From assembly GCA_001795795.1 (NCBI GenBank), contig MGKV01000017.1:81-48941 (forward strand): a DNA stretch of 48,861 nt, read 5' to 3'. This document shows, piece after piece, positions 10,678-46,760 of the stretch. Source of the DNA: Candidatus Yanofskybacteria bacterium RIFCSPLOWO2_02_FULL_45_18. GTDB taxonomy: Bacteria; Patescibacteriota; Minisyncoccia; 2-02-FULL-40-12; GWA2-44-9. Numbering within the stretch: the first letter of the stretch is position 1; every line of letters starts with the position of its first letter. The translations under genes and the position numbers were made by a program. The notes beneath the pieces were generated by a model. That model made no database searches. It saw nothing but the letters and a program-made list of their open reading frames with translations, and was not told where the DNA came from.

Positions 10678-10714
10678 AAGTCAGAAGTCAAAGGTTAAAA
10701 GTAAAAAGTTAAGG
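10678..10714. repeat. Degenerate heptad array
   Basis: aagtcag aagtcaa aggttaa aagtaaa aagttaa. Confidence 0.75.
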
Positions 10715-10760
10715 TAAGAAATTGTTGCTTTCAGGACTAATTTTTGATAAAATTAATAAC

Positions 10761-11420
10761 ATGACCATAACTTGGTATGGACAAAGTTGCTTCCGTATTG
10801 AAACAAAAGGGGCTTCTTCGACGGGCTTAGGGCAAGCTTCTGTTTTGATTGACCCCTTTTCTAGGGATATAGGGCTAAGGCCGCCCCGGATAAAGGACGA
10901 TATTGTTTTGGTTACTCACGCTCATTACGACCACAACAATTTGGAAGGACTGAACGAAGAGGCGTTTGTGATTAATACGCCGGGAGAATACGAAAGAAAG
11001 GGTATTTATGTGCGCGGCACCCGTTCTTATCACGATAATTCCAGTGGCATCGAAAGGGGGCTGAACACCGTCTTTATTCTTAAGGCCGAGGATATGGCAA
11101 TTTGCCACATGGGCGATTTTGGCCAAACCAAACTGGAGGAACACCAGCTCGAGGAGATAGGCGATGTTGACCTGCTGATGATTCCTGTTGGCGGAAAATA
11201 CACGATTGGCTCAAAAGAAGCGGTGGAAATAATCGGTCAGATCGAACCCAAGATAGTTATTCCGATGCACTACAAAGTGCCATCGCTGAATATAGATATT
11301 GACGGACCGGAGAAGTTTACCAAAGAACTGGGGCTGGCGCCGGAGAAGGTTGATAAGTTCAAAATTGCGAAGAAGTTACTGCCGGCGGAAGAGATAAAAT
11401 TAGTGATGTTTGAGTTGTAA
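10761..11420 (+). CDS. MBL-fold metal-dependent hydrolase (UlaG-like)
   Basis: MTITWYGQSCFRIE; THAHYDHNNLEG; GDFGQTKLEEHQL; PMHYKVPS. Confidence 0.9.
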   Translation: MTITWYGQSCFRIETKGASSTGLGQASVLIDPFSRDIGLRPPRIKDDIVLVTHAHYDHNNLEGLNEEAFVINTPGEYERKGIYVRGTRSYHDNSSGIERGLNTVFILKAEDMAICHMGDFGQTKLEEHQLEEIGDVDLLMIPVGGKYTIGSKEAVEIIGQIEPKIVIPMHYKVPSLNIDIDGPEKFTKELGLAPEKVDKFKIAKKLLPAEEIKLVMFEL

Positions 11421-11483
11421 CATTTAACACTTGACCTGCGACATTTGACAGGCGGTCAGTTGTCAATGGTTAATTGTCAGTTG
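11420..11483. repeat. Degenerate heptad array
   Basis: acattta acacttg acctgcg acatttg acaggcg g tcagttg tcaatgg ttaattg tcagttg. Confidence 0.7.
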
Positions 11484-11490
11484 TTCGCTA

Positions 11491-11835
11491 ATGAAGTGGC
11501 TTGATGAAATCCACAAACAGCCCAAGGGCGTAAGAGAACTGTTATTCGCGCTCTGCGTGGTAGCGACGCTGTCGCTGATTGGGATGGCATGGTTCAGGTC
11601 TTTTGATAAACAACTTTTTGCGTTGCTGAATCCGGATGTAAAAATTGAAGACCAGAAGCATTATGCCGTCAACGAAGCGCCGTCAATCTTTGCTTCTATC
11701 GGTCAACTCTTCGGAGATTTAAAGGCGCAGATATCGAGGATATTTCAAGAGGACTACTTGCCGCAAGCGTCTCCTGAAAATTATGAAGATATTCAGGCGA
11801 AGCCGTTGCCGTTGCCACGGGACAAAACCGAATAG
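11491..11835 (+). CDS. Hypothetical single-TM protein
   Basis: LLFALCVVATLSLIGMAWF TM segment; directly upstream of gyrA. Confidence 0.7.
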   Translation: MKWLDEIHKQPKGVRELLFALCVVATLSLIGMAWFRSFDKQLFALLNPDVKIEDQKHYAVNEAPSIFASIGQLFGDLKAQISRIFQEDYLPQASPENYEDIQAKPLPLPRDKTE

Positions 11836-11846
11836 AATTTTATTTT

Positions 11847-14270
11847 ATGCCAGCCGAAATACTAAAAAGGGAAATAGTTGAGGAGGTCCAGCAAGCATAT
11901 CTTGAATACGCGATGAGCGTTATTGTGGCGCGCGCTTTGCCGGATGTCCGCGACGGATTAAAGCCGGTTCACCGGCGCATTTTGTATGTGATGAATAAAA
12001 TGGGCCTGACCGGCGGGGCAAAATACCGTAAGTCGGCGACTATTGTCGGCGAGGTATTGGGTAAATACCACCCTCATGGGGATGTTTCGGTTTACGACTC
12101 AATGGTCCGCATGGCGCAGGATTTTGCGATGCGTTATCCGATGGTGGACGGGCAGGGCAATTTCGGTTCCATTGACGGGGACCGTGCGGCCGCTTACCGC
12201 TATACCGAAGCCCGCATGTCCCGCATTGCCGAAGAGCTGTTGGCCGATATTGAAAAAGAGACGGTGGACTTTGCGGATAACTATGACAGCACCCAGCAGG
12301 AGCCGAAAGTTTTACCGGCGCGCATCCCCAATCTTTTAATGAATGGCTCGGTCGGAATCGCTGTTGGTATGGCAACCAACATTCCTCCGCATAATCTGGG
12401 CGAGCTGATGGACGGGCTCGCATATCTGATTGACAACAAAGATGCGGACGCCAAGGAGCTTCTTCAATTTGTGAAGGGTCCTGATTTTCCGACAGGCGGG
12501 ATAATCTACAACGAAAACGATATCGCCAATGCCTATGCCACCGGCAAAGGTCCGATTTTGATGCGGGCAAAAGCCGATATCGTTGAGGGGGAAAAGGGCT
12601 TTCAGATAATAATCACGGAAGTGCCGTATCAGGTTAATAAAGCCGAACTTATCATAAAAATGGCCGATTTGGTCAAGGAAAAGAAAATTGAGGGTATCAA
12701 GGATATCCGTGACGAGTCCGATAAAGACGGTCTGCGGATTGCCGTTGACTTGAAGCAGGACGCTTTTCCGCGCAAAGTCCTCAATCAGCTTTTTAAATAC
12801 ACCGAACTGCAGAAGGCCTTCCATTTCAACATGCTGGCGCTGGTTGACGGTATCCAGCCGCAGATACTAGGTCTGAAAGCGATGCTGGAGAAATTCATTG
12901 ACCACCGGCGGGATGTGGTAACGCGGCGGACAAGATTTGATCTGCAAAAGGCCAAAGATCGGGCACACATTCTGGAAGGCCTCAAAAAAGCGCTTGACCA
13001 CATAGATGAAATCATTAAGCTCATCAAAAAATCAGAATCGCGCGAAGACGCTTTTAATAATTTGATTAAGACATTCAAATTTTCTGACCGCCAGGCCAAC
13101 GCTATTTTGGAAATGAAATTGCAGGCCTTGGCTGGTTTGGAAAGAAAGAAGATTGACGACGAGCTAAAAGAAAAGAAAGAGCTGATTGCGTATCTGGAAG
13201 AACTTTTAGCCAGCCCCAAGAACATATTAGCCGTTATCAAGGATGAATTCCGCGAGATAAAAACAAAGTATGCGGATGAGCGCCGGACCAAGGTGGTCAA
13301 ATCTCCGCTTAAAGAGATAGGCGAAGAAGAATTGATTCCCGAGGAAGATTCGCTTTTTATGCTGACGCAGGGCGGTTATATCAAACGGATACCTCCCGAA
13401 GATTTGCGCGCCCAAAAGCGCGGCGGCAAGGGTCTTATCGGCATTGCCACCAAAGAAGAGGATGTCGTTTCGCAATTTTTCATAGCCAATACCCATGACG
13501 ACCTTTTGTTTTTCACTAACTCGGGCAAGGTTTTCCAGACCAAGGGCTATGAGGTGCCGGAATCTTCGCGCCAAGCCAAAGGTAAAGCCATCGTTAACTT
13601 CCTGCAGATTACCCCAGCCGACAAGATTACGGCGGTAGTGCCGTTGTCCAAAGAGCAAAAGGGCCAGTATCTTTTTATGGCCACAGCCAACGGTATCATC
13701 AAAAAAGTGGAGATGGACGCTTTCGGCGCGGTCCGGCGCAACGGCATGATTGCCATAGGCCTCAAGGGTGACGACGAGTTGCGCTGGGTGCTTTCCATTT
13801 CCGGCGGCGATGAGATGATTTTGGTTACGGCCGGCGGCAACGCCATCCGTTTCAAAGAAAAAGATGTCCGCGCGATGGGCCGCACCGCGGCCGGAGTTAT
13901 CGGCGTGCGGTTGGGCGATAGTGAAAAAATCGTCGGCGCCGATGTCATTCCCGCCAAGGCCGAGAAGGGTCTGCATATTCTGGCGGTGATGGAGCATGGC
14001 TATGGCAAGCGCACTGCGCTCGGCCAGTACAAGGTGCAAAAGCGCGGCGGGAGAGGTATCATGACCGCCAAAATTACGCCTAAGACCGGCAAGCTGGTGT
14101 CGGCTCACATCACCTCCGAAGAGAACAAAGAAATCATCGCCGTATCGCAAAAGGGCGTAGTTATCCGCACCTCCATTGAATCAATCTCAATCATCGGCCG
14201 CGCCACCCAAGGTGTCCGCATCATGCGTCTTGAAGCAGGCGACTCACTGGCAAACGTTGTAGTAATCTAG
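11847..14270 (+). CDS. gyrA: DNA gyrase subunit A
   Basis: [56 protein letters not shown] box. Confidence 0.98.
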
Positions 14271-14319
14271 GTTGTAATGGGTTGTAACGATCTGATTATC
14301 TATATAAAATTATTAGAAA

Positions 14320-14333
14320 CTAGCACGTGCTAG
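14320..14333. repeat. 14-bp perfect palindrome downstream of gyrA
   Basis: ctagcacgtgctag. Confidence 0.8.
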
Positions 14334-14344
14334 AAAATAATAAT

Positions 14345-14470
14345 ATGAGATTTGTAGAAAACCTGATTGAAATTATTAAGGAGATGCCGCAACTTTTGGA
14401 AGATTTATTAGTATATGAGTCTATGGGGCGTAAAATAGGGAAGAAAAAATTAAAAAGTTTTTTAAGTTAG
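14345..14470 (+). CDS. Possible small protein, 41 aa
   Basis: MRFVENLIEIIKEMPQLLEDLLVYESMGRKIGKKKLKSFLS; ORF only. Confidence 0.3.
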   Translation: MRFVENLIEIIKEMPQLLEDLLVYESMGRKIGKKKLKSFLS

Positions 14471-14530
14471 GCGAGTGACAGGCCGGTATTTAAGTGAGTA
14501 AATTAAGCAAGTAAAAAGAAGTAGTAGATA

Positions 14531-14564
14531 TTATTAAAATCCTGCTCGAGCAGGATTTTAATAA
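14531..14564. repeat. 34-bp perfect palindrome
   Basis: ttattaaaatcctgctcgagcaggattttaataa. Confidence 0.95.
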
Positions 14565-14678
14565 CTGGGGGGGTGTAAGCGTGAGGTGAGCCCTCCGCCG
14601 TCTCTTCAGTGTTCAACCTTGAATAAATAGTGGACAACTGGGTTTGGCGCAAAGATTTTGTGTGGTAAAATGTCAGAT

Positions 14679-15230
14679 ATGGAAAACTCTACAATGTTGG
14701 GCTCTTTTGCTGACCCGGAAACACTGGCTGGGCAGTTTGGCGTGACCGAAGGGATGAAAACGGCAGATTTCGGTTCAGGTTCCGGCCACTTGGGAATTGC
14801 CGTAGCCAAACGCGTTGGCAAAGACGGCATCGTCTACGCTTACGACATTATGGAGAGCGCGCTTGAAGCAATTCGTGGCCGCGCGTCGGCCCTTGGCCTT
14901 GCCAATATTGATGCCCGCCGAGCCAATCTGGAAGTGGCCGGCAGTACCGGTTTGCCCGATGGTTCGGTGGACTTGGTTTGGATGGCGTTGATACTTTTCC
15001 AATCGCAAAAAAAAGCAGATATTGTCCGCGAAGCAAGGAGAATTTTAAAACCGGGCGCGCGTATGATAATCATTGACTGGATAAAGGGCGGTGGCGGGCT
15101 GGGCCCGCCGGACGAACTGCGCACCGACGAAGAAACAATGAAAGGACTTATCGTTGCCGAAGGTTTTGAGTTGTTCAATCGTGCCAATACCGACAGTTTC
15201 CACTATATGATGACTTTTAAGAAAATTTAA
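14679..15230 (+). CDS. Class I SAM-dependent methyltransferase
   Basis: TADFGSGSGHLGIAVAKRV; EARRILKPGARMIIIDW. Confidence 0.9.
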   Translation: MENSTMLGSFADPETLAGQFGVTEGMKTADFGSGSGHLGIAVAKRVGKDGIVYAYDIMESALEAIRGRASALGLANIDARRANLEVAGSTGLPDGSVDLVWMALILFQSQKKADIVREARRILKPGARMIIIDWIKGGGGLGPPDELRTDEETMKGLIVAEGFELFNRANTDSFHYMMTFKKI

Positions 15231-15366
15231 AACTCAAAATGCAAAATGTCCCGACTCCGCCGAGGACTCTCGATGGAATCGGAGCAAAATTCAGAAAGTG
15301 AAAATTTCGCTTGCGAAATTTTCACTTTCTGAATTTTAAATTTTCCATTTTTAATTTTGAATTAGT
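15230..15366. repeat. Composite element: A-rich heptads / 25-bp-stem hairpin / T-rich heptads
   Basis: aaactca aaatgca aaatgtc; perfect 25-bp arms 15286-15310/15313-15337; gaatttt aaatttt ccatttt taatttt gaattag. Confidence 0.85.
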
Positions 15367-15369
15367 TTT

Positions 15370-16701
15370 ATGCAACTTCCCTCTCTCCCTTCCGGCAACA
15401 AATTAATATATGTTCTTATCGGCTTGGGGGTTTTGGTCGTCGTTCTTATTTTTATTGTTATCATCGGCGGTATCGGCAAACAGCCGGCTAAAGTAACCCT
15501 GCAACTATGGGGCGTATTTGACGAGCGGTCCGCTTACAGCAAAGCAATCAGCGATTTCAAGAAGCAATACCCTAACATTAATGTAACTTATACCAGACAA
15601 ACAGCCGAAGATTACGAACAAAAGTCGCTGAACGCTTTTGCCGCCGGCTCCGGTCCCGATATCTGGATGATTCATAACGTTTGGTTGCCCAAGCACCAAG
15701 ACAAGCTTCGCCCCCAGCCCAAAAGCTTAAAAGGTTACAAGCTTAAACCGATTACAACCATCCAATTCAAAGAACAATTCGTGGACGCGGCTTTCAAAGA
15801 CCTTGTCAGCGGTGGCCAGATCTACGCCCTGCCTCTCTATGTTGACACTCTTGCCCTCTACTATAACAAAAACCTTTTCAACAGCGTCGGCATTACGCGG
15901 CCGCCTAAAATATGGAAAGAGGTCAACGCCGATGTTGAAGCGGTTACCAGGCTGGACGCGAACGGCAACATTATCCAGTCGGCCGCGGCTCTGGGAACGG
16001 CAAGCAATATCAACCGCTCCACGGACATTCTGGCGGCTCTGATGCTCCAAAGCGGAGTGCAGATGACCAACAGCGACAACACCGGCGCGGCTTTTGCCAA
16101 AGCGGTCGGCCAGCAGAATGTGGGGCAGATAGCGCTGGAGTATTATACTGATTTCACCAATCCGTCTAAGCGCACCTATACTTGGAATAGCGGCATGCAC
16201 TACTCCGTTGACGCTTTCATTGAGGGTTCAACGGCGATGATGTTCAACTACTCCCACCAAATTCCGGTAATCCGGCAAAAAGCCCAGCGTTTTGACTTTG
16301 GGGTTGCCGCTTTTCCCCAACTGGACCTGACCGACCAAACTAATTACGCCAGCTACTGGGCGCCGGCCGTTCCGCTTGCTTCCAAACACCCCAATGAAGC
16401 GTGGCTTTTCATAAACTTTCTGGCTTCCAAGGACCCAGCCACCAACTATTTGGTGGCGACAAACCGGCCGGCGGCGCGACGCGACTTGATTGAGGCCCAA
16501 AAGACCGACGACGAATTGGGTATTTTTGCCTTGCAGGCCTTAAGCGCCAAGTCATGGTATCAGGTGGACAGTTCGGCTGTAGAAAAAATATTCGCCGACA
16601 TGATAAACGATGTTAATTTCAAACGCCGTTCTGTCCGCGACGCGTTAGTTAATGCAGAATCACGAGTGAATGTACTGATGCAGAAAGCAAGAAAAAAGTA
16701 G
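15370..16701 (+). CDS. ABC transporter extracellular solute-binding protein (sugar type), membrane anchored
   Basis: N-terminal TM; FKKQYPNINVTYTRQ; AAGSGPDIWMIHNVW; YYNKNLFNSVGI. Confidence 0.9.
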   Translation: MQLPSLPSGNKLIYVLIGLGVLVVVLIFIVIIGGIGKQPAKVTLQLWGVFDERSAYSKAISDFKKQYPNINVTYTRQTAEDYEQKSLNAFAAGSGPDIWMIHNVWLPKHQDKLRPQPKSLKGYKLKPITTIQFKEQFVDAAFKDLVSGGQIYALPLYVDTLALYYNKNLFNSVGITRPPKIWKEVNADVEAVTRLDANGNIIQSAAALGTASNINRSTDILAALMLQSGVQMTNSDNTGAAFAKAVGQQNVGQIALEYYTDFTNPSKRTYTWNSGMHYSVDAFIEGSTAMMFNYSHQIPVIRQKAQRFDFGVAAFPQLDLTDQTNYASYWAPAVPLASKHPNEAWLFINFLASKDPATNYLVATNRPAARRDLIEAQKTDDELGIFALQALSAKSWYQVDSSAVEKIFADMINDVNFKRRSVRDALVNAESRVNVLMQKARKK

Positions 16702-16703
16702 AT

Positions 16704-16801
16704 ACAAATTAAAAATGCAAAATGCAAAATTTAGGTTCTTGAAAATTTTTTTAAAAATTTTCAAGTTCAATAACTTTAATTTTTGGATTTTAAATTTTTA
16801 A
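16704..16801. repeat. Composite element: A-rich heptads / 13-bp hairpin / T-rich heptads
   Basis: acaaatt aaaaatg caaaatg caaaatt; 16738-16750/16753-16765; ctttaat ttttgga ttttaaa tttttaa. Confidence 0.82.
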
Positions 16802-16822
16802 CTTAAGCAATTTGCGGCAGAC

Positions 16823-18084: not shown

Positions 18085-18138
18085 TAAGTGTGCTACAGGG
18101 GGGTTTAAATTTATGTCCAATCGTGGTATAATTGGGGT

Positions 18139-24158: not shown

Positions 24159-26438
24159 TTATAAACCAGAATGTTGGAACGGCCAAGGCGCAACCACAAG
24201 AAGCTCCGCTTCTTTTTGAGGCAGTTGCCGGTAGATTTCTTCGGTGACAAATGGTGCAAACGGATGGAGCAACCGTAGAATAGTATTTAGACAGTATAAA
24301 AGTATTTTTTGCGTGTTTTCCTTTTGCTGTACATCCTGAAGCTGAACCTTGGATTTCTCAATATAGATGTCGGCGAACTCGTGCCAGACGAACTGGTAAA
24401 TTTGGTTGGCCGGTTCGTGGATGATATGGCGGTCAAGGTTGTCGGTTACGGATTTAACAAGCGCTTCAAGTTTAGCAAGAATGTCCTTGTCCGCATCTGT
24501 AATACTTTGCGGTTTTGAAATTTGAAATTTGAAATTAGAAATTGGAGTATTCATCAGAATATATCGGCTGATATTCCACAGTTTGTTGGCGAAATGTTTG
24601 TAGGCCTTGATTTTGTCTTCCCAAATGCGCGTATCGGTTCCCGGCGTATTGCCGACGACCAAAGCCATGCGCGCGGCATCGGCGCCGAATTTCTCGGCAA
24701 CGTCAATCGGGTCAATGCCGTTGCCCAGCGACTTAGACATTTTGCGTCCCTTGGCGTCGCGGACGGTGCCATGCAGATATACGTCGCGGAATGGAATATC
24801 GCCCAGCGCGTAGCCGCTCATCATTATCATGCGCGCGACCCAAAAGAATAAAATTTCGTATCCGGTTTCAAGGATATCGGTGGGGTGGTATGCCTCCAAG
24901 TCCTTTGTTTTCTCGGGCCAGCCGAGGGTGGAGAAAGTCCACAGGCCGGAAGAAAACCAGGTATCTAGCGTATCCGGGTCTTGGATAAACTTTGCATCAC
25001 AGAATTCGCACTTTGGCGCGGCGGCGGCAACAATCGTATCTTTGCATTTGACGATATCGCCCTCATGGCCGGTTCGTGGAATGCATTTCGGCTCATGATA
25101 CCATACGGGGATTTGATGCCCATACCAAATTTGCCGCGAGATGCACCAGTCCCGCAGGTTATCTACCCAATGAAAGTATGTTTTGGCAAAATGGTCGGGG
25201 ATGATTTTAATTTGTCCGGAGGCGACTGCATTGCGCATGATGTCTTTGAGAGTTGTTTCCGAACCGGACTGGAGGCCTTTTAATTTTGAATTTTTGATTT
25301 TAAATTTTGTATTTACATTTACAAACCACTGGAGCTTCGGCAAAGGTTCAATTATGCCGCCGGTTCTTTCGGCCGTGGCGATGTTCTGGGTTACCTCCTC
25401 TTCTTTTTCAAGAAGATTATTTTCTTTAAGCCAATTTATGATTTCTTCCCGCGCTTCGGATGTTTTCTTGCCGCGGATGCGCTCGTCGCCTACCAGTATG
25501 CGGGCGTATTCGCTGATTACCTGCGGAGCGGAGAGATTGTGGCGCTTGGCTATTTCCCAGTCGGTCATACTGTGAGCGGGCGTAACGCCGACGGCGCCGG
25601 TCCCAAATTCGGGGTCGGCGGCGGGGTCGGCCACGATCTTGATATTTAGCGGAACGCCGCAGAAATCCAGGTTGTATTCTTTGCCGATATATTGCTGATA
25701 GCGTTTGTCGTCGGGATGGACGGCCACGGCGGTGTCGCCGACTTTGGTTTCGGGACGAGTGGTGGAGATAGCAATGGGGAAATCTTTGGCGTAGCGAAAA
25801 GTATAAAGCTTGGTTTTGCGCTCTTCATAAACGATTTCGTCATCGGAAATGGTTGTCTGACCCTTAGGATCCCAATTGACGATACGGTTGCCGCGGTAGA
25901 TCAGGCCGTCATCATACATTTGTTTGAATATTGTCCGGACGGCCAAACTGCGTTTCTCATCCAGCGTAAAGGCCTCGCGGCTCCAGTCGCAGGATGCGCC
26001 CATGACGCGGATCTGTTTCTGGATAGTTTTGCGGCTTTGACTGACGAACTCGTCTATCCGGCGCAGTAATTCTTCGCGGCCGAGGTCGTGGCGATTTTTG
26101 CCTTCTTTTTTGTAGATCTCTTTTTCAACGACCGCTTGAGTGGCGATGGCGGCGTGGTCGGTGCCCGGGAGCCATAGCGTCTTAAAACCGCGCATGCGGC
26201 GGTAACGGATCATGATGTCTTCAAGAGTGAGCATTAGCGCGTGGCCCATGTGCAAGATGCCGGTAGCGTTAGGCGGGGGCATCATGATTGTAAACGGCTT
26301 TGGTTCTGGAATTTTACCCCGCTTCGCCAATGCTACGCAGGGCAGTCCTTCTGGGCTGAAAAATCCGCTCTCTTCCCAGAGTTTGTATATGCGCTGTTCT
26401 GTCTCGCGAGGATTGTACGCTTTCGGCAGTTCTTCCAT
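24159..26438 (-). CDS. valS: Valyl-tRNA synthetase
   Basis: PPPNATGILHMGHAL; TLWLPGTDHAAIATQ; KMSKSLGNGIDP. Confidence 0.97.
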   Translation of the reverse strand: MEELPKAYNPRETEQRIYKLWEESGFFSPEGLPCVALAKRGKIPEPKPFTIMMPPPNATGILHMGHALMLTLEDIMIRYRRMRGFKTLWLPGTDHAAIATQAVVEKEIYKKEGKNRHDLGREELLRRIDEFVSQSRKTIQKQIRVMGASCDWSREAFTLDEKRSLAVRTIFKQMYDDGLIYRGNRIVNWDPKGQTTISDDEIVYEERKTKLYTFRYAKDFPIAISTTRPETKVGDTAVAVHPDDKRYQQYIGKEYNLDFCGVPLNIKIVADPAADPEFGTGAVGVTPAHSMTDWEIAKRHNLSAPQVISEYARILVGDERIRGKKTSEAREEIINWLKENNLLEKEEEVTQNIATAERTGGIIEPLPKLQWFVNVNTKFKIKNSKLKGLQSGSETTLKDIMRNAVASGQIKIIPDHFAKTYFHWVDNLRDWCISRQIWYGHQIPVWYHEPKCIPRTGHEGDIVKCKDTIVAAAAPKCEFCDAKFIQDPDTLDTWFSSGLWTFSTLGWPEKTKDLEAYHPTDILETGYEILFFWVARMIMMSGYALGDIPFRDVYLHGTVRDAKGRKMSKSLGNGIDPIDVAEKFGADAARMALVVGNTPGTDTRIWEDKIKAYKHFANKLWNISRYILMNTPISNFKFQISKPQSITDADKDILAKLEALVKSVTDNLDRHIIHEPANQIYQFVWHEFADIYIEKSKVQLQDVQQKENTQKILLYCLNTILRLLHPFAPFVTEEIYRQLPQKEAELLVVAPWPFQHSGL
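24515..24542. repeat. In-frame heptad array in valS
   Basis: ttgaaat ttgaaat ttgaaat tagaaat; encodes SNFKFQISK. Confidence 0.85.
25278..25319. repeat. In-frame heptad array in valS
   Basis: ttttaat tttgaat ttttgat tttaaat tttgtat ttacatt; encodes NTKFKIKNSKLK. Confidence 0.85.
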
Positions 26439-27071: not shown

Positions 27072-28190
27072 CTAGCTCAAACTTAAATTAGCGTCCATCT
27101 TAATTGACTTCCAGCTAAATTTGTTCCGGCTTGTCGTTGGAATTTGAGCATACCGGAAATATCCGGCGCAGGCGATCATGGTGGCGTTGTCGCCGGTGTA
27201 TTCCATGGCGGGCTGGAAATACCTGATGCCCGCTTTGGCGCAATTTTTGGAAAGTTCTTCACGCAGATATTTGTTGGCCGATACGCCGCCTGAAAGCAAG
27301 ACAGCTTTTGTTTTAAATTGCGCGGCGGCTTTCAAAGTTTTTTGAACCAGCACCTCAATAGCGGCTTTTTGGAATTCGTAACAAATCTCGTTGACGACAG
27401 AATCTGTTAATTTAGTTTTATTTTCTTTAAGTTCCCGCACCTTATACAGAACCGAAGTTTTCAACCCCGAATAGCTAAAATTAAAATCCTTGGACTTAAT
27501 CATCGGCCTCGGAAACTTAATAATTGTATCCGCGTTGATCCGTATTGATCCCGCGTTATTCAGCGCAAATTGCTCGGCTAGCCGAGCAATTTGAGGCCCG
27601 CCCGGATAGCCCAGACCAAGTAGCCGCGCGACCTTGTCAAATGCTTCGCCCACTGCGTCATCCAGCGTCTCGCCGATGATTTTATATTTGCCGTGGTCTT
27701 GCATCAGCACCAGCTCCGTATGCCCTCCCGAGACGATTAAATTCAACGCCGGAAATATCTTATCTCCGAAATTTTGAATTTTGAGTTTTGAATTTTGAGT
27801 TTTCACTCCAATTGGCATCAGCCAATTGGAGTGTATGTGTCCGTCCAGATGATTAACTCCGACAATTGGTTTATCATATTTCCATGCTAAAGTCCGCGCG
27901 AAAGTCAGGCCGGTTAAAAGCGCCGGAGCGAGACCGGGGCCGCGCGTGACGGAGATCAGGCCTATGCCGTCAATATCCGTTTCGGCGTCCGCGAGCGCGG
28001 TTTTAAAAACATGCCCGATGTTTTTGGCATGCTCGCGGGCGGCCAGATTGGGCACGACGCCGCCAAATTTTGCGTGAAGTTTTACCTGTGACGAGATGGC
28101 ATTTGACAAAACTTCAATCCGGCTACTTTTCGCCTCAATTATGGCTATGGCCGTCTCGTCACAGGATGTTTCAATTCCTAGTATTTTCAT
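27072..28190 (-). CDS. tsaD: tRNA N6-adenosine threonylcarbamoyltransferase
   Basis: MKILGIETSCDETAIAI; VNHLDGHIHS; VSGGHTELV; LLSGGVSANKYLRE. Confidence 0.97.
   Translation of the reverse strand: MKILGIETSCDETAIAIIEAKSSRIEVLSNAISSQVKLHAKFGGVVPNLAAREHAKNIGHVFKTALADAETDIDGIGLISVTRGPGLAPALLTGLTFARTLAWKYDKPIVGVNHLDGHIHSNWLMPIGVKTQNSKLKIQNFGDKIFPALNLIVSGGHTELVLMQDHGKYKIIGETLDDAVGEAFDKVARLLGLGYPGGPQIARLAEQFALNNAGSIRINADTIIKFPRPMIKSKDFNFSYSGLKTSVLYKVRELKENKTKLTDSVVNEICYEFQKAAIEVLVQKTLKAAAQFKTKAVLLSGGVSANKYLREELSKNCAKAGIRYFQPAMEYTGDNATMIACAGYFRYAQIPTTSRNKFSWKSIKMDANLSLS
27566..27593. repeat. 28-bp perfect palindrome inside tsaD
   Basis: caaattgctcggctagccgagcaatttg. Confidence 0.95.
27769..27833. 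repeat. In-frame heptads (5 units) plus 12-bp-stem palindrome inside tsaD
   Basis: aaatttt gaatttt gagtttt gaatttt gagtttt + cactccaattgg catcag ccaattggagtg. Confidence 0.9.
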
Positions 28191-36746: not shown

Positions 36747-37106
36747 GGGAGCGATCGGCTTCGACGTTGTTCTTAGCTAATTAGATGCTGGGAGTGGACG
36801 GCTTGTTTAACCACTATAAAACACCGGCCAATCAAAATAGGTGCAAATTATTCACCTAATTACGCTTTCGCTTAAGTAATTTTGCGAAGCCGTTCTGTCT
36901 GCGATGCTCGCTAGCAGAATCAGGACGTCATTAGCGAGCTGGGCAGCCCGTTTTGTTTTCTCGCGACGCTGCCGAGAAATTAGAGGAGACTAGCTCAAAG
37001 TAATTTTGTTGATTTCACATCTCTGGGCGAAATAATCAAATCAGATATCCCGGTACACATCTATTGGCGCGAACTGCGGACTGGGGTTCAATTCCCCACG
37101 CTTCCA
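36747..37106 (+). ncRNA. ssrA: tmRNA; tag ORF 36843-36875 encodes ANYSPNYAFA*
   Basis: GGGAGCGATCGGCTTCGACG 5' end; GGGGTTCAATTCCCCACGCTTCC-A 3' end; tag reading frame. Confidence 0.93.
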
Positions 37107-37145
37107 CAATTTTAAATAGGCCCGTCGGGCCTATTTAAAATTGTG
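37105..37145. terminator. 19-bp perfect hairpin at tmRNA 3' end
   Basis: cacaattttaaataggccc-gtc-gggcctatttaaaattgtg. Confidence 0.75.
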
Positions 37146-39313: not shown

Positions 39314-40027
39314 CTACTTGAAAAAGGTATTCCAGCTGTCAGGGTGGTGGATTTTGAGGGTTTTGGTTTCGCCGGTGGTGGCGGTTTGAAAAGTCAGTTC
39401 GGTGGCGCAAAGAGCCATCCCATTAGAACCCGCGGCCGCACCCCCATATTTCGCATCTCCCATGATTGGGTGGCCGGCGGCGGCGAATTGGGCGCGGATT
39501 TGGTGGAATCGTCCGGTAATAAGCTCAATCCGTAAAAGTGAATAGCGGCCGTTAGATTTTATAGTTTTATAATGCAGTTCGGCCATGTCCCCTATTTTCA
39601 GCATATGCTGAAAATAGGGGACAGTTGATTCATCGGTGTTACCCGGAGATCCAACAATTTTGGCAATCCGGCGCTTGGTATCTTTTGAAATATAATTTCT
39701 AAGAACTCCATTGGGTGGTATAATTTTACCGGCAATGACGGCGTGGTAAATTTTGGTAATCTCTCGCTCGCGGATCTGCTCTGACAGTCGCGCCGCGCCT
39801 TTAGATGTTTTAGCGAAAAGGACGATTCCTGAAACCGGCCGGTCCAAACGGTGTAACAGTCCCAGGAAAACATTGCCCGGCTTTTTGTATTTTTCTTTGA
39901 GGTGTTTTTTTACTTCATCCATTAAACTAATATCTCCGCTTTTGTCTCCCTGCACCAAAACCCCTGCCGGCTTAAAAACGGCGATTAAATGGTTGTCTTC
40001 GTAGAGAATTTTTAATTGAAAACTCAT
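39314..40027 (-). CDS. RluA family pseudouridine synthase
   Basis: LLHRLDRPVSGIVLFAKTSKGAARLSEQI; LITGRFHQIRAQFAAAGHPIMGD. Confidence 0.93.
   Translation of the reverse strand: MSFQLKILYEDNHLIAVFKPAGVLVQGDKSGDISLMDEVKKHLKEKYKKPGNVFLGLLHRLDRPVSGIVLFAKTSKGAARLSEQIREREITKIYHAVIAGKIIPPNGVLRNYISKDTKRRIAKIVGSPGNTDESTVPYFQHMLKIGDMAELHYKTIKSNGRYSLLRIELITGRFHQIRAQFAAAGHPIMGDAKYGGAAAGSNGMALCATELTFQTATTGETKTLKIHHPDSWNTFFK
39586..39623. repeat. 38-bp perfect palindrome inside RluA CDS
   Basis: tgtcccctattttcagcatatgctgaaaataggggaca. Confidence 0.95.
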
Positions 40028-40073
40028 TTGCGTCATCCTAGCATAGAATGCGCCAATAATATAGAATAGATTT

Positions 40074-41354
40074 ATGCAGAAAGGATTTGACCACAAACTC
40101 TATAATTTTGATTCCGGCCTGCGTCTGATTGCCGTGCCGATGCCGGCGACCAAGTCGGTTACCGTTTTGGTTTTGGCTGGCACCGGTTCAAAATATGAAA
40201 CTAAGGAAATCAACGGCATTTCTCATTTTTTGGAGCATATGATGTTCAAGGGCACCGCCAAGCGGCCGGGCAAAATGGACATATCCCGCGAGCTGGACTC
40301 CATCGGTGCCGACTACAATGCCTTCACATCCAAAGAATATACCGGCTACTACGCCAAAGCGAGCTCCGACAAACTGCCGGTGGTGATGGACGTGATCTCG
40401 GATATTTTTCTTAATTCAAAACTTGATGCCGGCGAGATTGAGATTGAGAAAGGAGTCGTGATTGAAGAATTGAACATGTATCGGGATACGCCCCAGCGTT
40501 ATGTCGGGGATTTGTTTGAGAAACTGCTGTACGGCGATCAGCCGGCGGGCTGGGACATCGGCGGTGACAAGGAGACCCTTCTGAAAATGAAGCGTGATAA
40601 TTTTACGGACTATTTTAACTCTCACTACATCGCTGGCAATACCGTTGTCGCCGTTGCCGGGGACATTGATCCAGAGGATATTAAAACGCGCATCCCTGAA
40701 TATTTCCGCAACATCAGAGACGGGCGGGCTCCGGCCAAGGCACCGACACGGGAATCACAGAGCGAACCCACGCTTTTAGTTCATTGGAAAGAAACCGACC
40801 AGACCCACTTCAATCTGGGATTTCGCTCCTATCATATGTTTGACGAGCGTAAGTATGCCCTTGGAATGCTGGCCGCGATTATGGGCGGCGGCATGAGTTC
40901 GCGGCTGTTTGAGGAAGTGCGCGATAAGAGGGGACTTGCCTATTACATCGGAGCAAGCGGCAACGAATATACTGATACGGGGTTTTTTCTCGTCCGCGCT
41001 GGAGTCAACAAAGAAAAGACCTTGGACGCGCTCAAAATTGTATTGGAAGAATTGCGCAAGGTGCGGGATAATGGAGTGACGGAGGACGAGCTGAAAAGAG
41101 TCAAAGACCAGGTTCGGGGCCAGATGGTTCTGGGCCTTGAAAGTTCGGATAATGTGGCTGAAGCTTACGCCGACCCCGTTCTTTTTGAAAATAGGGTATT
41201 GACACCAGAAGAAAAACTTGATAAAATAAACAAGTTAAGCGTAGCGGATGTAAATACGGTTGCGCGGGAGGTTCTAAAAAACGAGAAATTGAATTTAGCG
41301 TTGATCGGCCCGTTCAAAGATTTGGAAGAATTTAGGAAAATTCTCCGAATCTAA
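40074..41354 (+). CDS. M16 family zinc metallopeptidase (pitrilysin/insulinase)
   Basis: GISHFLEHMMFKGTAKRPGKMDI (HxxEH); downstream E within EKGVVIEELNMYRD. Confidence 0.96.
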   Translation: MQKGFDHKLYNFDSGLRLIAVPMPATKSVTVLVLAGTGSKYETKEINGISHFLEHMMFKGTAKRPGKMDISRELDSIGADYNAFTSKEYTGYYAKASSDKLPVVMDVISDIFLNSKLDAGEIEIEKGVVIEELNMYRDTPQRYVGDLFEKLLYGDQPAGWDIGGDKETLLKMKRDNFTDYFNSHYIAGNTVVAVAGDIDPEDIKTRIPEYFRNIRDGRAPAKAPTRESQSEPTLLVHWKETDQTHFNLGFRSYHMFDERKYALGMLAAIMGGGMSSRLFEEVRDKRGLAYYIGASGNEYTDTGFFLVRAGVNKEKTLDALKIVLEELRKVRDNGVTEDELKRVKDQVRGQMVLGLESSDNVAEAYADPVLFENRVLTPEEKLDKINKLSVADVNTVAREVLKNEKLNLALIGPFKDLEEFRKILRI

Positions 41355-41367
41355 CGGGCAACCTAAA

Positions 41368-41423
41368 ACATTTAACCGTTGACTTTCAAATGTCAATTGT
41401 CAAATGTCAATTATCAAATGTCA
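41368..41423. repeat. Heptad array of 8 units overlapping a start codon
   Basis: acattta accgttg actttca aatgtca attgtca aatgtca attatca aatgtca. Confidence 0.88.
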
Positions 41424-42467
41424 GCCGAATCCCACACTCACATAGAAATATCATTAGCCAGCGTATTGAAGTTTGTTTTAGTAATCGTGGCTTTGCTGGC
41501 GCTCTATCTGCTTAAAGAAGTAATAGGAATTTTCCTTTTTGCCCTGATAATCGCTTCCGCCATTGCGCCTTTTGCCGACTGGCTGGAATCCAAAGGATTG
41601 CCCCGCGTCCTCGGAGTTTTACTGCTCTATTTAGTGGTTTTCGGCTTGGCGGCGTTACTGCTTTCACTGATTGTTCCTTATGTGTCCCAGGAATTACTGC
41701 AGTTAACGGTGAATCTTCCCATAATTTTAACCAAAGTTACGACTTCTTTGGACACGGTTCAACAACAATCCTCAAAATATTTTGATTTCGCCAGCGAAAT
41801 CCAGAATATGCTTGATTATTTCAGCGCTTATCTTCAGCAATTCTCGCAGTCAGCGATAGGCATCATTGTCAGCATCTTTGGCGGCATTTTCTCTTTTGCC
41901 GCGATAGTCATCATATCGTTTTATCTCTCGGTTATGAAAGGCGGCATAGATACTTTTATGAAATCGGTCATGCCGGAAAAATACGAGGCCTATGTCGTCA
42001 GTTTGTGGAAACGCTCCGAAGCCAAAGTCGGGCGTTGGCTGCAGGGGCAGATGCTGTTGGCCCTGATAGTCGGGCTGGCGGTTTATGTGGGTCTTTCTTT
42101 AATGCATGTTAAGTTTGCCTTGATATTAGGCGTGCTTGCCATGATATTGGAGATCGTGCCGATAGCCGGACCGGTGCTGGCGGCAATTCCGGGAGTGATT
42201 CTCGGTTTTTTGGGTTCTCCGGTGCAGGGATTCTGGATATTGCTTTTCTATTTTGCCGTTCAACAGCTGGAAAATCACATCCTTGCTCCGATTATTTTAG
42301 GCAAAACCACCGGCCTTAATCCGGTTACGGTTATCATTGCTCTTTTGGTTGGCGGCCAGCTGGCCGGCATCTCGGGCATGCTTTTGGCTGTGCCGATTGC
42401 CACGGTTATTGTGGAGATTCTTGACGATCTGGCAAAGCGCAAAGAACTTAAACGTGGCAGTGTTTGA
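41418..42467 (+). CDS. AI-2E family transporter
   Basis: Multiple TM; ADWLESKGLPRVLGVLLLYLVV; LEIVPIAGPVLAAIPGVILGFL. Confidence 0.92.
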   Translation: MSAESHTHIEISLASVLKFVLVIVALLALYLLKEVIGIFLFALIIASAIAPFADWLESKGLPRVLGVLLLYLVVFGLAALLLSLIVPYVSQELLQLTVNLPIILTKVTTSLDTVQQQSSKYFDFASEIQNMLDYFSAYLQQFSQSAIGIIVSIFGGIFSFAAIVIISFYLSVMKGGIDTFMKSVMPEKYEAYVVSLWKRSEAKVGRWLQGQMLLALIVGLAVYVGLSLMHVKFALILGVLAMILEIVPIAGPVLAAIPGVILGFLGSPVQGFWILLFYFAVQQLENHILAPIILGKTTGLNPVTVIIALLVGGQLAGISGMLLAVPIATVIVEILDDLAKRKELKRGSV

Positions 42468-42615
42468 CAATTCAAAATTAAAAATGGCCTACTCCACCGA
42501 AGCAGCTTCGGCTGCGAAGGCTGGGAAAAATTAAAAATTCAGGAAAGCGTAAATTGCGTAAACGAAATTTGCGCTGGCATTAATTTTACATTTTTCATTT
42601 TGAGTTTTTAATTTG
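42467..42615. repeat. Composite element: A-rich heptads / inverted repeats / T-rich heptads reaching the rsmI start
   Basis: acaattc aaaatta aaaatgg ... taatttt acatttt tcatttt gagtttt taatttg. Confidence 0.82.
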
Positions 42616-43314
42616 CTTTACATCGTCTCCACCCCAATTGGTAATTTAGAAGACATTACTCTTCGGGCTATTACCGTGCTTGGCAATGTTGATTTGATAT
42701 TAGCCGAAGATACGCGGGTTACCAAAATTCTCCTTGACCGATACAATATTAAAAAGGGGTTAGTGAGTTATCATCAGCACAGCACGCTTAATAAAATAGA
42801 ACGCGTCATTGATGAGTTGCGAAAGGGCAAAGACATTGCCCTTGTTTCCGATGCCGGAACCCCGGGCATTAACGATCCCGGCGGTTTTCTGGTCAGAAAA
42901 ATCTTGGAAGCGTTGCCGGATGTGAAAATCATTCCCATTCCGGGAGCCAATGCGGCTATCGCCGCTTTGAGCATCAGCGGTGTTCCGGCCGATGAGTTTT
43001 TGTATCTTGGTTTTCCGCCGCACAAAAAAGGCCGGAAGAAATTTTTTGAACAAATCAGTCAAGCGAAACAGACCATTGTATTTTACGAATCAAAATATAG
43101 AATATTAAAGGCGCTCAAAGAATTGAAGGATATTGCCAAAATAGGTGAGCGACCGCTTATTGTGGCTCGGGAACTAACCAAACAATTTGAGACGATTTAC
43201 CGCGGCACTGCGGATGAGATATTAATGCATTTAGGCCGCGGGAATGTGCTGGGGGAGTTTGTGGTCGTAGTTAGTCCAAAGTATAAAGTGAAAAGTGAAA
43301 AGCCCGATGAATAA
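42613..43314 (+). CDS. rsmI: 16S rRNA (cytidine-2'-O)-methyltransferase (TTG start)
   Basis: LYIVSTPIGNLEDITLRAI; AEDTRVTKILLDRY; SDAGTPGINDPGGFLV; REVTK-like ARELTKQFE. Confidence 0.96.
   Translation: MLYIVSTPIGNLEDITLRAITVLGNVDLILAEDTRVTKILLDRYNIKKGLVSYHQHSTLNKIERVIDELRKGKDIALVSDAGTPGINDPGGFLVRKILEALPDVKIIPIPGANAAIAALSISGVPADEFLYLGFPPHKKGRKKFFEQISQAKQTIVFYESKYRILKALKELKDIAKIGERPLIVARELTKQFETIYRGTADEILMHLGRGNVLGEFVVVVSPKYKVKSEKPDE
43278..43305. repeat. In-frame heptad array at rsmI C-terminus
   Basis: aaagtat aaagtga aaagtga aaagccc; encodes KYKVKSEK. Confidence 0.75.
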
Positions 43315-43486
43315 AGGAATTGAGATATTTGAAGATGTAATAGTGTGGCAACGATCCCGAGAACTAGTCTTATTCGTGTATAATTTGTTTAGGGGCTCAA
43401 AAAACTTTGGTTTTAAAGATCAGATTCAAAGAGCGGCGATCAGTATGGGAAATAATATTGCGGAAGGATTTATCAAAAAGCTTTAA
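43307..43486 (+). pseudogene. Truncated four-helix-bundle (S23/IVP-like) protein
   Basis: FEDVIVWQRSRELVLFVYNLF...GFKDQIQRAAISMGNNIAEGF then stops; family members are about twice as long. Confidence 0.65.
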
Positions 43487-43504
43487 TTCTATAACTTTTT
43501 ACTT

Positions 43505-44956
43505 ATGTCAAAGTTTTATATCACGACCGCCATTGCCTACACCAACGCCCCGCCTCATATCGGCCATGCTTTGGAGTTGATTCAGGCGGATGCTTTTGCC
43601 AGATGTCATCGTCAAAAAGGCGAGGAGGTCTTCTTTTTGACCGGAACCGATGAACACGGCACAAAAATTGCGCGCGCCGCCAGAGATGCCGATGTTGCGC
43701 CCCGGCAATTTACGGACGAAATTTCAACCAAGTTCAGAGAGTTATGCGGTATTTTGAATATCTCCAATGATGATTTTATCAGAACTACCGACCGCGAACG
43801 CCACTGGCCGGCGGTAAAGTTGATTTGGGAGCGGCTCGCCGAATCCGGCGATTTGTATAAGAAAAAGTATGAGGGACTATATTGCGCCGGCTGCGAATCA
43901 TTTAAGAAGAAAAGCGACTTGGAAGACGGGCGATGTTCGGTTCATAAAATTGAACCGGAAAAAATTGAAGAAGAAAATTGGTTTTTCAAGATTTCCAAAT
44001 ACAAGGATAAGGTAAAGGAGCGGATAGCCGATGGCGAATTGCGAATAGTGCCGGAACTGCGCAAGCAAGAAATCTTGAATCTTATTGATGACGCTGAAGA
44101 TGTCAGTTTTTCCCGTCCGCGGGAAAATCTGGAATGGGGGATACCGGTTCCAAATGACTCCTCGCAAACCATCTATGTCTGGGCCGACGCTTTAACCAAC
44201 TATATCTCCGCTCTCGGATATGGTCAAATGTCAAATATCAAAGGTCAAATGTTGTTTGAAAAATACTGGCCTGCCGATATTCACTTAATCGGCAAAGATA
44301 TTCTACGCTTTCACGCTTTGATTTGGCCGGCGATACTTTTATCCGCCGGGCTGGAATTGCCAAAAGCAATTTACGCGCATGGCTTTATAACCGTTGACGG
44401 CCAGAAAATGTCAAAGACGGTAGGCAATGTGATTGACCCCTTTGACTTAATAAAAAAATACGGAACCGATGCCGTGCGTTACTTCCTATTGCGCGAGATT
44501 CCGTCAAACGAAGACGGTGATTTCTCGTATAAAAATCTGGAGGCGCGCTATAACAGCGACCTTGCCAACGGTCTGGGAAACTTGGCGGCGCGGATTTTAA
44601 CTTTGGCCGAAGGGGAGAACCTTTCCGGCGGCCAATTGCCAAGCCACGAAATTACTCACAAGATTGAGGCGGCGCAAAGGGCGGTTGATGAAAAAATTGC
44701 GGAGTTTAAACTGCATGAGGCCTTGGCGGCAATTTGGGACTTAATCGGCTTCGCCAATGGCTATGTGAATGACAAACAGCCATGGAAAACCCGCAACAAG
44801 GAGGTTATCTTTGATCTCGTTGTCCTGTTAGAGAATATCGCGCGGCTTCTCGCGCCTTTCATGTCTCAAACCGCCGAGAAAATACTGGCCTCCACCAGGG
44901 ACAAGAATGGCAATATTCGGATTAAAAAAGGCGAAGCGCTATTTCCCAGACTCTAG
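43505..44956 (+). CDS. metG: Methionyl-tRNA synthetase
   Basis: TTAIAYTNAPPHIGHALELIQADAFAR; GTDEHGTKI; GQKMSKTVGNVIDP. Confidence 0.97.
   Translation: MSKFYITTAIAYTNAPPHIGHALELIQADAFARCHRQKGEEVFFLTGTDEHGTKIARAARDADVAPRQFTDEISTKFRELCGILNISNDDFIRTTDRERHWPAVKLIWERLAESGDLYKKKYEGLYCAGCESFKKKSDLEDGRCSVHKIEPEKIEEENWFFKISKYKDKVKERIADGELRIVPELRKQEILNLIDDAEDVSFSRPRENLEWGIPVPNDSSQTIYVWADALTNYISALGYGQMSNIKGQMLFEKYWPADIHLIGKDILRFHALIWPAILLSAGLELPKAIYAHGFITVDGQKMSKTVGNVIDPFDLIKKYGTDAVRYFLLREIPSNEDGDFSYKNLEARYNSDLANGLGNLAARILTLAEGENLSGGQLPSHEITHKIEAAQRAVDEKIAEFKLHEALAAIWDLIGFANGYVNDKQPWKTRNKEVIFDLVVLLENIARLLAPFMSQTAEKILASTRDKNGNIRIKKGEALFPRL
44223..44250. repeat. In-frame heptad array in metG
   Basis: gtcaaat gtcaaat atcaaag gtcaaat; encodes GQMSNIKGQM. 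Confidence 0.85.
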
Positions 44957-45087
44957 CGTGTTAGGCCACTGGGCTGTTAGATGCCCAATGCCTAACAGTC
45001 GGATCCGTCTGAATATTGAATAAATCCAGTAAATTCGCGGTTTTATGCAATATTAAGAGGCAGGCCGCTAGACGCCTCAACATACAT

Positions 45088-46662
45088 ATGCCAAAAAGCA
45101 GATTTTTCTATCTCGGCCTAATTTTCTGGATCGGATTCGTATCTTTGATGTACGAAATCTACAGCACCCGCGTGCTCTTTTTGTTTTTTACCGAAACTAG
45201 CTGGGCGATTACCATTGCTATCTCGGCGTTTCTGGGCGGTTTGGCTTTCTCCAGTTTATTTTTCTCCTCTCTGGCGCATAAAAATCCAAGCCGTATTTTT
45301 CTGTTGATCTGGGCCATGCAAATGGCGGCGGCGGTTTACGGATTTTTTATTCTGCGGAATTATGAACTGATACCTCGCCTGATCGACCATTTGCAAGTTG
45401 CCGTTGGCGGCGGTTCGCTGGCTGTCATCGCCAGGAATGCGTTGATGTGGATTTATCTTTTTGTTCCGGCGTTTTTTATCGGGGGAGCGTTTCCGTTGGT
45501 TAATGGTTTGTTTCTGGAAAGTAAAGAACGGGGCGTGCGCGACACAGGATTGGTTTATTTCTGGGATACCGTCGGTTCTATATTGGGCGCGTTCATGGCC
45601 GGATTCTGGCTTCTGCCCCGTGTTGGGTTTGAGGCGACCATATTGGTTGCGGTTTTCTTGAATATAATCATCGCGGCCGTTGTTGCTCCTCGCGTAAGAC
45701 AACGTCAAATTATCCTCGCGCTTTTAGTAATTCTTTCTCTAGTTAAAATTCAGCATATTTTAAAAACTGACAGCCAATCACTTACTTCGCCCGCGGACGG
45801 GGAACAGCAAAATACGCTGTCTGAATTTTCGTATCTTAGCAAAAGATTCGGGGACGTGCTTTTTCGGGAACCATCGCCTTTCGGCCAGATTACGATAGGG
45901 AACAATGCTTTCGGCAGGCCGGGCAATAAGGTCTTGTTTATTAATTATCGCGATATGTGCTGGAGCGCTGAACATGGTTCGGAATCGCGGATGGCCAATA
46001 TCGCCATCGCGCCGTTGCCGGTTAACTCGCGGGTATTGAATATCGGTCTGGGCTGCGGATTTACCGCTGCTGAAGTTCTGCGCCAGCCCAATGTCGCCGA
46101 ATTGGATATTGCCGAGATAAATCCGGTGGTTGCCAAGGGGACCGCGCGGTATTTTAAGGCGGAGAATCAGGATGTTCTCGGCTCTCCTAAGACGAACCTT
46201 TATCTTCGGGATGGCGCCGAATATATCCGGCAGACCGGCAAGCGTTACGACGCCGTCGTTATTGATATTGAAGAACCGACAGTTTTATATTCTTCTCCGC
46301 TTTATACCAAAGAGTATTTTCAGATATTTCGGAAAAAGCTGGGTTCGCGGGGAGTATTGGCAGTTTGGGCGCACAATGGCAGCGCCGAATTTGAGAAGGT
46401 CATGTATAACACTCTGCAGTCGGTTTTTAAGCACGTAACTATCCGTGTTCTAGACGCTTACTACACTTATTACGCTTCCGACGAGGACTACAACTTCGGC
46501 TCGCCAGAAACGGCGGAAAAACAATTTATTTCTTCTGTGCTTCAGGCCAATATCAGCACAGTCAACACGCTGGACAATCGCGCGCTGGAGAAGTATTTTA
46601 ATCTGCAAAGTTTCTTCAACCTGCCGGCCGATTATAAAGAGAAGTACATTACAGACAACTAA
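45088..46662 (+). CDS. Membrane-fused spermidine synthase-like protein
   Basis: N-terminal TM segments; RVLNIGLGCGFTAAEVLRQPNVAELDIAEINPVV; YDAVVIDIEEPTVLYSSPLYTKEYFQ. Confidence 0.9.
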   Translation: MPKSRFFYLGLIFWIGFVSLMYEIYSTRVLFLFFTETSWAITIAISAFLGGLAFSSLFFSSLAHKNPSRIFLLIWAMQMAAAVYGFFILRNYELIPRLIDHLQVAVGGGSLAVIARNALMWIYLFVPAFFIGGAFPLVNGLFLESKERGVRDTGLVYFWDTVGSILGAFMAGFWLLPRVGFEATILVAVFLNIIIAAVVAPRVRQRQIILALLVILSLVKIQHILKTDSQSLTSPADGEQQNTLSEFSYLSKRFGDVLFREPSPFGQITIGNNAFGRPGNKVLFINYRDMCWSAEHGSESRMANIAIAPLPVNSRVLNIGLGCGFTAAEVLRQPNVAELDIAEINPVVAKGTARYFKAENQDVLGSPKTNLYLRDGAEYIRQTGKRYDAVVIDIEEPTVLYSSPLYTKEYFQIFRKKLGSRGVLAVWAHNGSAEFEKVMYNTLQSVFKHVTIRVLDAYYTYYASDEDYNFGSPETAEKQFISSVLQANISTVNTLDNRALEKYFNLQSFFNLPADYKEKYITDN

Positions 46663-46675
46663 CAACTAACAACGA
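46655..46675. repeat. Heptad array
   Basis: acaacta acaacta acaacga. Confidence 0.7.
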
Positions 46676-46733
46676 TGAGTAAATTTAGATTTTTAGAGCG
46701 GACGGGGCATTCTATGGTTTTAAGAAAAAATTA

Positions 46734-46760
46734 GTTGTAAGTCGTAAGTTGTAAGTTATG
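46734..46760. repeat. Heptad array overlapping tatD start
   Basis: gttgtaa gtcgtaa gttgtaa gttatg. Confidence 0.75.

Follow-up and report, generated by a model that had tools for sequence, protein, structure and literature searches.

Why should short tandem arrays with different units, scattered over one stretch of bacterial DNA, all keep a period of seven nucleotides? The stretch in question, referred to here as the window, comprises 48,861 nt of Candidatus Yanofskybacteria bacterium RIFCSPLOWO2_02_FULL_45_18 (contig MGKV01000017.1), and an earlier note on it had listed 13 such heptad intervals and ascribed them to one generating mechanism, heptamer slippage or templated copying, acting on different seeds. 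The window was analyzed together with the whole of its genome (G000; 627,228 bases in 23 contigs, 97.7% complete, every contig scanned in stretches), a reduced genome of the Patescibacteria/Paceibacteria type from the Candidate Phyla Radiation; the GyrA encoded in the window is 76-79% identical to that of named Candidatus Yanofskybacteria genomes, and a cyanobacterial origin, which the heptamers might have suggested, was rejected accordingly. With a probability that we place at roughly 0.55, the arrays are the paired or single arms of one class of element, short hairpins with heptad arms scattered through the genome. Many intergenic hairpins are found in one species and missing from another, and single arms occur in frame in essential genes, so that the 7-nt period would seem to be a property of spreading elements of one family rather than of copying slips at unrelated places.

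Periodicity was scored as lag matches out of 14, and places were counted at 11, 12, 13 and 14 of 14. At period 7 the window holds 17, 8, 4 and 1 such places against 1.6, 0.2, 0.1 and 0 in an order-3 Markov control, and neighboring periods show no comparable excess. The genome-wide check that the earlier note had called for bears this out, with 203, 119, 59 and 31 places against 27, 7, 4 and 4 expected; periods 4, 5, 8, 10, 11, 13, 16, 17, 19 and 20 stay at or below about 2.5 times expectation, periods 14 and 21 are harmonics of 7, and periods 6, 9, 12 and the like carry the coding triplet signal. A chance origin of the period-7 arrays is rejected by the counts in both the window and the whole genome. 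Taken singly, 12 of the 13 intervals exceed within-interval shuffles (P <0.0005 to 0.008), among them 11420-11483, which is weak per unit (10 of 14 matches at lag 7) yet reaches P = 0.0035; the claim fails for 25278-25319 (P = 0.10). Arrays of this kind also occur in many relatives of G000, 15 of the sampled genomes bearing them and 7 being array-free.

Near-exact arrays are bounded in length: they span 17-39 nt (one of 49 nt), mostly 25-33 nt or about four heptads, with no long tail. Length distributions are alike within and between genes, so there is no +21-nt frame signature, and a frame-imposed limit of +21 nt (four copies) on in-gene arrays was accordingly rejected. Local slippage or template switching with a 7-nt step could duplicate any local 7-mer, with fold-back copying making the inverted arm, and the units would then differ because the seeds differ. 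We consider this explanation possible but rather unlikely; in its generic form it leaves the near absence of excess at periods 5, 8, 10 and 11 unexplained.

The units themselves bear on slippage in both directions. Among 73 exact arrays there are 52 distinct canonical units, far from one or few conserved units per genome, and such a multiplicity is what slippage would produce. Against it, a cyclic 7-position motif, fitted to the units of G000 in any rotation and on whichever strand, scores 3.19, compared with 2.34 (standard deviation 0.065) for GC-matched intergenic 7-mers, and reads approximately AA-W-W-K-Y-N. In other genomes the unit motifs likewise beat their own controls, with somewhat different motifs. 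That the units are random 7-mers was ruled out against both position-permuted and GC-matched 7-mers. The earlier statement that they share no sequence was too strong, since they cluster round a degenerate cyclic motif.

What the arrays build becomes apparent from their surroundings. A listing with a slightly different filter yields 196 arrays in G000, 67 intergenic, 45 at gene edges and 84 within genes, a split that is approximate, being based on a simple longest-ORF (open reading frame) gene call. We searched for an inverted partner arm within 150 nt, taking the expectation from flanks swapped between loci. Such a partner accompanies 59 of the 112 intergenic or gene-edge arrays (6.4 expected), but only 6 of the 84 in-gene arrays (4.6 expected). 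Many non-coding arrays are therefore arms of imperfect hairpins with about four heptads on each arm, and for about half of the non-coding arrays the stem is formed by complementary heptads on both arms. Nor are the intervals in the window independent arrays, as had been supposed: 15230-15366, 16704-16801 and 42467-42615 each contain both arms of a hairpin, 46655-46675 pairs with 46734-46760, and 11420-11483 is an entire hairpin.

This last element, a complete 69-nt heptad hairpin at 11419-11487 on the forward strand, belongs to a G000 family with RACATTT and GTCAATT arms. Its 5' arm reads AACATTT-AACACTT-GACCTGC-GACATTT-GAC, its loop AGGCG and its 3' arm GTC-AGTTGTC-AATGGTT-AATTGTC-AGTTGTT. 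It occupies the spacer from the stop of a gene of the metallo-beta-lactamase (MBL) fold (10722-11420) to an ORF at 11491-11835, which precedes gyrA (window genes were named by Pfam, those outside the window were recognized from sequence). In the relatives the site is empty or different.

One might suppose that such stems are functionally selected, as terminators or mRNA-stability stems at gene ends, and that the heptad pitch is a by-product. Measured against mononucleotide shuffles, hairpins of the window do fold better than expected, with z-scores of -3.2 (11415-11490), -9.2 (15225-15368), -4.2 (16700-16805) and -4.3 (42464-42610), with inner palindromes assisting the middle ones. Moreover, 34 of 43 paired loci lie between co-directional genes and 33 of 43 have an A-rich 5' arm and a T-rich 3' arm. 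We nonetheless find selection of this kind improbable as the source of the arrays: 10 of the 43 loci have the opposite polarity, only two lie between convergent genes, and neither the fixed 7-nt period nor the arms within coding genes would be explained.

Comparison of orthologous sites speaks to the same question. The comparison of allelic loci that the earlier note had proposed reveals array gain, loss and unit change. In the named Yanofskybacteria L045, L047, L048, L052, L054, L056, L058 and L061, the spacer between the MBL-fold gene and the downstream 114-residue ORF (the MBL-ORF114 spacer) is only 6-17 nt long; because the same gene pair persists there with so short a spacer, the hairpin is dispensable, which again tells against functional selection. 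L050 and L055 have different palindromes in the spacer, and L046 and L057 have heptad hairpins there that are built of other units (AAGTTGT in L046, AAGTCGT/AAGTTGT in L057). The L046 site carries about six AAGTTGT units, a local expansion of the sort that slippage predicts. At the spacer that holds 15230-15366, L050, L056 and L086 carry heptad hairpins unrelated to that of the window, and L045, L046, L047 and L052 lack one. Between the congeneric genomes G027 and G030 (about 84-87% identical), the orthologous site could be identified in G030 for 17 of the 33 arrays of G027; about three are conserved and most of the others are absent or replaced. One site of this genome pair lies in the gene for isoleucyl-tRNA synthetase (IleRS), where a heptad array plus palindrome at L185:19156-19194 in G027 faces a different palindrome (GAGTGCCTCTTTTGCAGTTCGAGGG...) in G030, making it a recurrent in-gene insertion site.

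Families of dispersed elements allow the heptads to be read position by position. G027 contains ten copies of one hairpin in 386 kb, in which four GNCTAAN heptads and a GC lead into a loop akin to CCAGAAA..TCTTG, followed by the inverted arm. In its 5' arms, position 1 is G in 36 of 36 heptads, position 3 is C in 35 of 36, and positions 5 and 6 are A in 36 of 36, while positions 2 and 7 vary; these statistics come from nine copies of one family in one genome and are not independent. At the free positions the same letter recurs with a frequency of 0.42 within an arm and 0.40 between arms, so that homogenization by slippage is not seen within the arms of this family. Opposite arms form a standard pair in 81.2% of cells, compared with 84.5% for shuffled rows (498 of 500 shuffles equal or exceed the observed value), the mispairing falling chiefly on position 2. 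Arm-to-arm covariation is thus not seen, pairs being rarer than in shuffles, and the arms are therefore not fresh fold-back copies. This pattern argues against recent fold-back copying or slippage homogenization and for constraint on particular heptad positions. As a secondary process slippage does occur, since one G027 arm has about eight TTTAGTC units against four in the opposite arm. In G000, ten copies of the RACATTT/GTCAATT family, including the one at 11419 in the window, were aligned and show a systematic difference between the two arms at one position per heptad. Several hairpins of this family cluster with further arrays in an apparent ribosomal-protein operon at C7:65040-69050, one of them just ahead of an S8-like reading frame.

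Arrays also lie in frame within genes for valyl- (ValRS), methionyl- (MetRS) and leucyl-tRNA synthetase (LeuRS), IleRS (four arrays), a threonyl-tRNA synthetase-like protein, TsaD, IF-2, PolA, a RecG-like protein and others. The residues that the arrays encode in MetRS and TsaD fall at insertions relative to solved structures, and in LepA of G027 a complete hairpin codes for 20 extra residues, in frame, within the G domain as compared with solved EF4. A loop of PolA holds heptads of differing sequence in G000, G004, G005, G008 and G014, which represent five genera, and is shorter in others. One of the two arrays in ValRS sits at a loop of equal length in relatives and so need not be an insertion. 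For slippage, in-gene arrays raise a further difficulty, in that +7 or +14 intermediates in essential genes would be expected to break the reading frame. Rickettsia palindromic elements (RPE) are palindromic in-frame insertions in essential protein genes of a reduced genome. The insertions in LepA (20 residues), MetRS, TsaD and the PolA loop resemble them in this respect; RPE, however, form sequence-conserved families without heptad arms, and by this description the present elements are set apart.

Two observations in G000 concern what else occurs beside in-gene arrays. The IleRS gene at C8:32872-36378 (L031), which holds four heptad arrays, also has an insert in the middle of the synthetase in which a histidine-phosphatase-like RHG motif (YYLMRHGISERDE...IRHG) was recognized by eye. 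Non-heptad palindromes lie in frame beside heptad arms at C21:50936-51000, C13:6056-6110, C7:5215-5260 and C22:11409-11480, and encode the recurring peptides SRKGDPRSPTGLFGFP and RPELRSREGQPSSRAQVEG.

With these results in place, the earlier proposal of a single mechanism can be divided. A common process or element behind the shared period stands, the unit differing between relatives at an allelic site and in the PolA loop. Slippage or templated copying on arbitrary seeds does not fit the presence or absence of whole hairpins, the lack of homogenization in G027 and the motif shared by the units. The heptad hairpins are best read as elements that either move or are regenerated time and again, and they represent a variant of a kind that is known but unexplained. 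Several points weigh against this interpretation. In-gene arrays have no inverted partner, so insertion of whole hairpins fails to explain single arms. Close copies are the exception among the arrays of G000, only one large heptad family having 16-mers in at least three places. At the sites compared (G027/G030 and the Yanofskybacteria spacers) neither a target-site duplication nor an element boundary is definable, because the spacers of relatives are too diverged. Lastly, the palindromes that flank the Y1 transposase genes inspected in G000, G027 and G030 are particular to those genes and not built of heptads.

Y1 transposases enter the argument because of their distribution: among the genomes sampled, Y1_Tnp (PF01797) is found in 12 of the 15 that bear arrays and in none of the 7 without them (Fisher P = 0.0007, uncorrected for phylogeny and GC), with one gene in G000 and four in G027. 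The arrays could accordingly be elements like the repetitive extragenic palindromic (REP) sequences, mobilized by resident Y1 transposases of the RAYT type. Reverse transcriptase PF00078 is absent from G000 and so is not needed there, which suits this explanation; a diversity-generating retroelement was rejected on the same absence and on the invariant adenines 5 and 6 of the G027 heptad. We nevertheless judge mobilization by resident Y1 enzymes improbable. The array-bearing genomes G017, G020 and (weakly) G034 have no Y1 match, and the correlation is confounded by genus and GC, since three of the seven array-free genomes belong to one genus and most are GC-rich. Furthermore, the palindromes around RAYT genes are not heptads, as in G027, where ACAATGGGCATCTTTGCAAGGAT...ATGCCCATTGTAA, also written ACAATGGGCATCTTTGCAAGGAT(C)TGCAAAGATGCCCATTGTA, lies on both sides of the gene. 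Inspection by eye of the G027 and G000 family alignments, made without a systematic scan, revealed no GTAG or CGTC stem-foot tag at a fixed place. In their own right, the RAYT-like genes at L170:14500-15480 (G027), L216 and L186 (G030), each flanked by its own short palindromes, are apparent REPtrons in Patescibacteria.

Several described systems share part of this architecture. The P6b stem of the Nostoc/Calothrix trnL (tRNA-Leu UAA) intron is built of Class I (TDNGATT) or Class II (NNTGAGT) heptanucleotide repeats (PMC4476775). As in the present hairpins, its two arms are made up of 7-nt repeats that complement each other and in which some positions are fixed and others free; its length varies in steps of seven, and one class of unit can take the place of the other at a given site. 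Unlike them, it is a single locus in a cyanobacterial group I intron, whereas the arrays here have many unit types and occupy many loci across the genome, protein genes as well as spacers. Direct repeats of the heptamer TAACTGA occur in Beggiatoaceae, cyanobacteria and Bacteroidetes, with mixed heptamers in Microcystis (PMC4679880). They too are dispersed, largely intergenic, lineage-specific and sometimes mixed, with 7-nt indels between close strains, but they have essentially one unit, are direct rather than inverted, and in BOGUAY lie mostly just upstream of starts. A slippage contribution is favored by 7-nt indels, which are reported for Cyanothece in its TAACTGA arrays (PMC4679880) and for the trnL stems of Nostoc (PMC4476775). 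G-quadruplex heptamer repeats, GGGAATC/GGGGATT, of Xanthomonas and Nostoc (PMC4692102) similarly show a heptamer excess with neighboring periods near normal; these are G-rich with one unit per genome, while the present arrays are A/T-rich and cannot form G-quadruplexes. That paper further refers to heptamers being over-represented in many bacteria and to the heptanucleotides of Calothrix. REP sequences and bacterial interspersed mosaic elements (BIMEs), as well as miniature inverted-repeat transposable elements (MITEs; PMC3733652, PMC10969869), are likewise short dispersed inverted repeats with presence and absence between relatives; they have no heptad period, and for the present elements no terminal tag or parent transposase is shown. 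No account of heptad hairpins in Patescibacteria was found in the literature searched, whose coverage left out most subscription journals. The earlier note's remark that no named family has this property thus needs qualifying for the heptamer excess of many bacteria and the heptad-built Nostoc stems, and otherwise stands.

The following route would account for such elements. Hairpins whose arms comprise about four 7-nt units (about 29 nt) and enclose a short loop or an inner palindrome would appear and disappear as complete elements, both in intergenic spacers and in the surface loops of genes, only in-frame events surviving in the latter. Every lineage would have its own element families, so that units would differ while the heptad architecture stays. 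Spread may proceed through copying of a folded single strand, in a REP- or MITE-like manner, and the 7-nt pitch may be kept because something recognizes each heptad; the candidate enzyme would be a Y1 transposase acting in trans, as the one that correlates. It is a tentative further step to envisage an unnamed class of mobile hairpins whose arms are read in 7-nt steps (of the G-x-C-T-A-A-x type, with mismatches tolerated) by a protein or ribonucleoprotein, the arm sequence drifting between lineages and the pitch and length not, and which might underlie the heptamer excess of cyanobacteria and other bacteria. The bacterial heptamer excess, reported without a mechanism, can now be linked partly to a definite object, a hairpin that is present in some relatives and absent from others and has some four heptads on each arm. 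This object brings with it allelic sites, by-genus series of units, invariant positions in each heptad and in-frame insertions in essential genes, and leads to testable questions: which agent moves the hairpin, what does the reading in sevens, and how reduced genomes cope with repeated insertion into aminoacyl-tRNA synthetases, IF-2, LepA and DNA polymerase I.

The remaining paired arms of the window lie on the forward strand. An A-rich 5' arm of CAAAATG type at 15227-15249, supported by array list, pairing and fold, pairs with a T-rich 3' arm at 15330-15363 around the inner core hairpin GAAAGTGAAAATTTC-GCTTGC-GAAATTTTCACTTTC. Likewise, the A-rich 5' arm at 16703-16734 (2.7 exact copies of AAAATGC) pairs around an inner hairpin with the T-rich 3' arm at 16781-16801. 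A hairpin of the RACATTT/GTCAATT family with a long 3' arm (TCAAATGTCAATTG) lies at 41367-41423, at the start of the AI-2E transporter gene, and adjoining the stop of that gene an A-rich 5' arm at 42464-42485 pairs with a T-rich 3' arm at 42580-42603 around the inner core GGAAAGCGTAAATTGCG...CGCTGGC. The ACAACTA 5' arm at 46650-46678, which overlaps the stop of the ORF at 45016-46662, is inverted to the AGTTGTA 3' arm at 46731-46761, which runs into the TatD start codon (46758); the fold of 46648-46763 is weaker, with a z-score of only -1.5.

The single arms of the window are mostly in frame. On the minus strand, the arm at 24511-24547 encodes the residues TPISNFKFQISKP in a variable-length loop of ValRS (24159-26438), the weak period-7 stretch at 25278-25302 of the same gene corresponds to a non-array loop of the same length in relatives and may be due to chance (P = 0.10), and the arm at 27768-27807 in TsaD (27072-28190) forms a stretch inserted relative to solved TsaD. 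On the forward strand, an AAAGTGA arm at 43277-43305 marks the C-terminal end of a tetrapyrrole-methylase gene (42613-43314), and a GTCAAAT arm at 44220-44252 in MetRS (43505-44956) encodes a 5-10 residue insertion relative to solved MetRS; similar 33-nt arrays occur on contigs C13 and C9 of G000. A single degenerate arm of AAAGTNA type at 10678-10712 (P = 0.0065) lies between divergent genes, without an inverted partner or a stable fold (z +1.4). Palindromic GGTGACATCACCATGTCACC repeats, unrelated to heptads, cluster at C21:23603-23855 and C18:1443-1526 of G000. The window also carries a tmRNA gene at 36747-37107, identified with ARAGORN, whose tag is ANYSPNYAFA.

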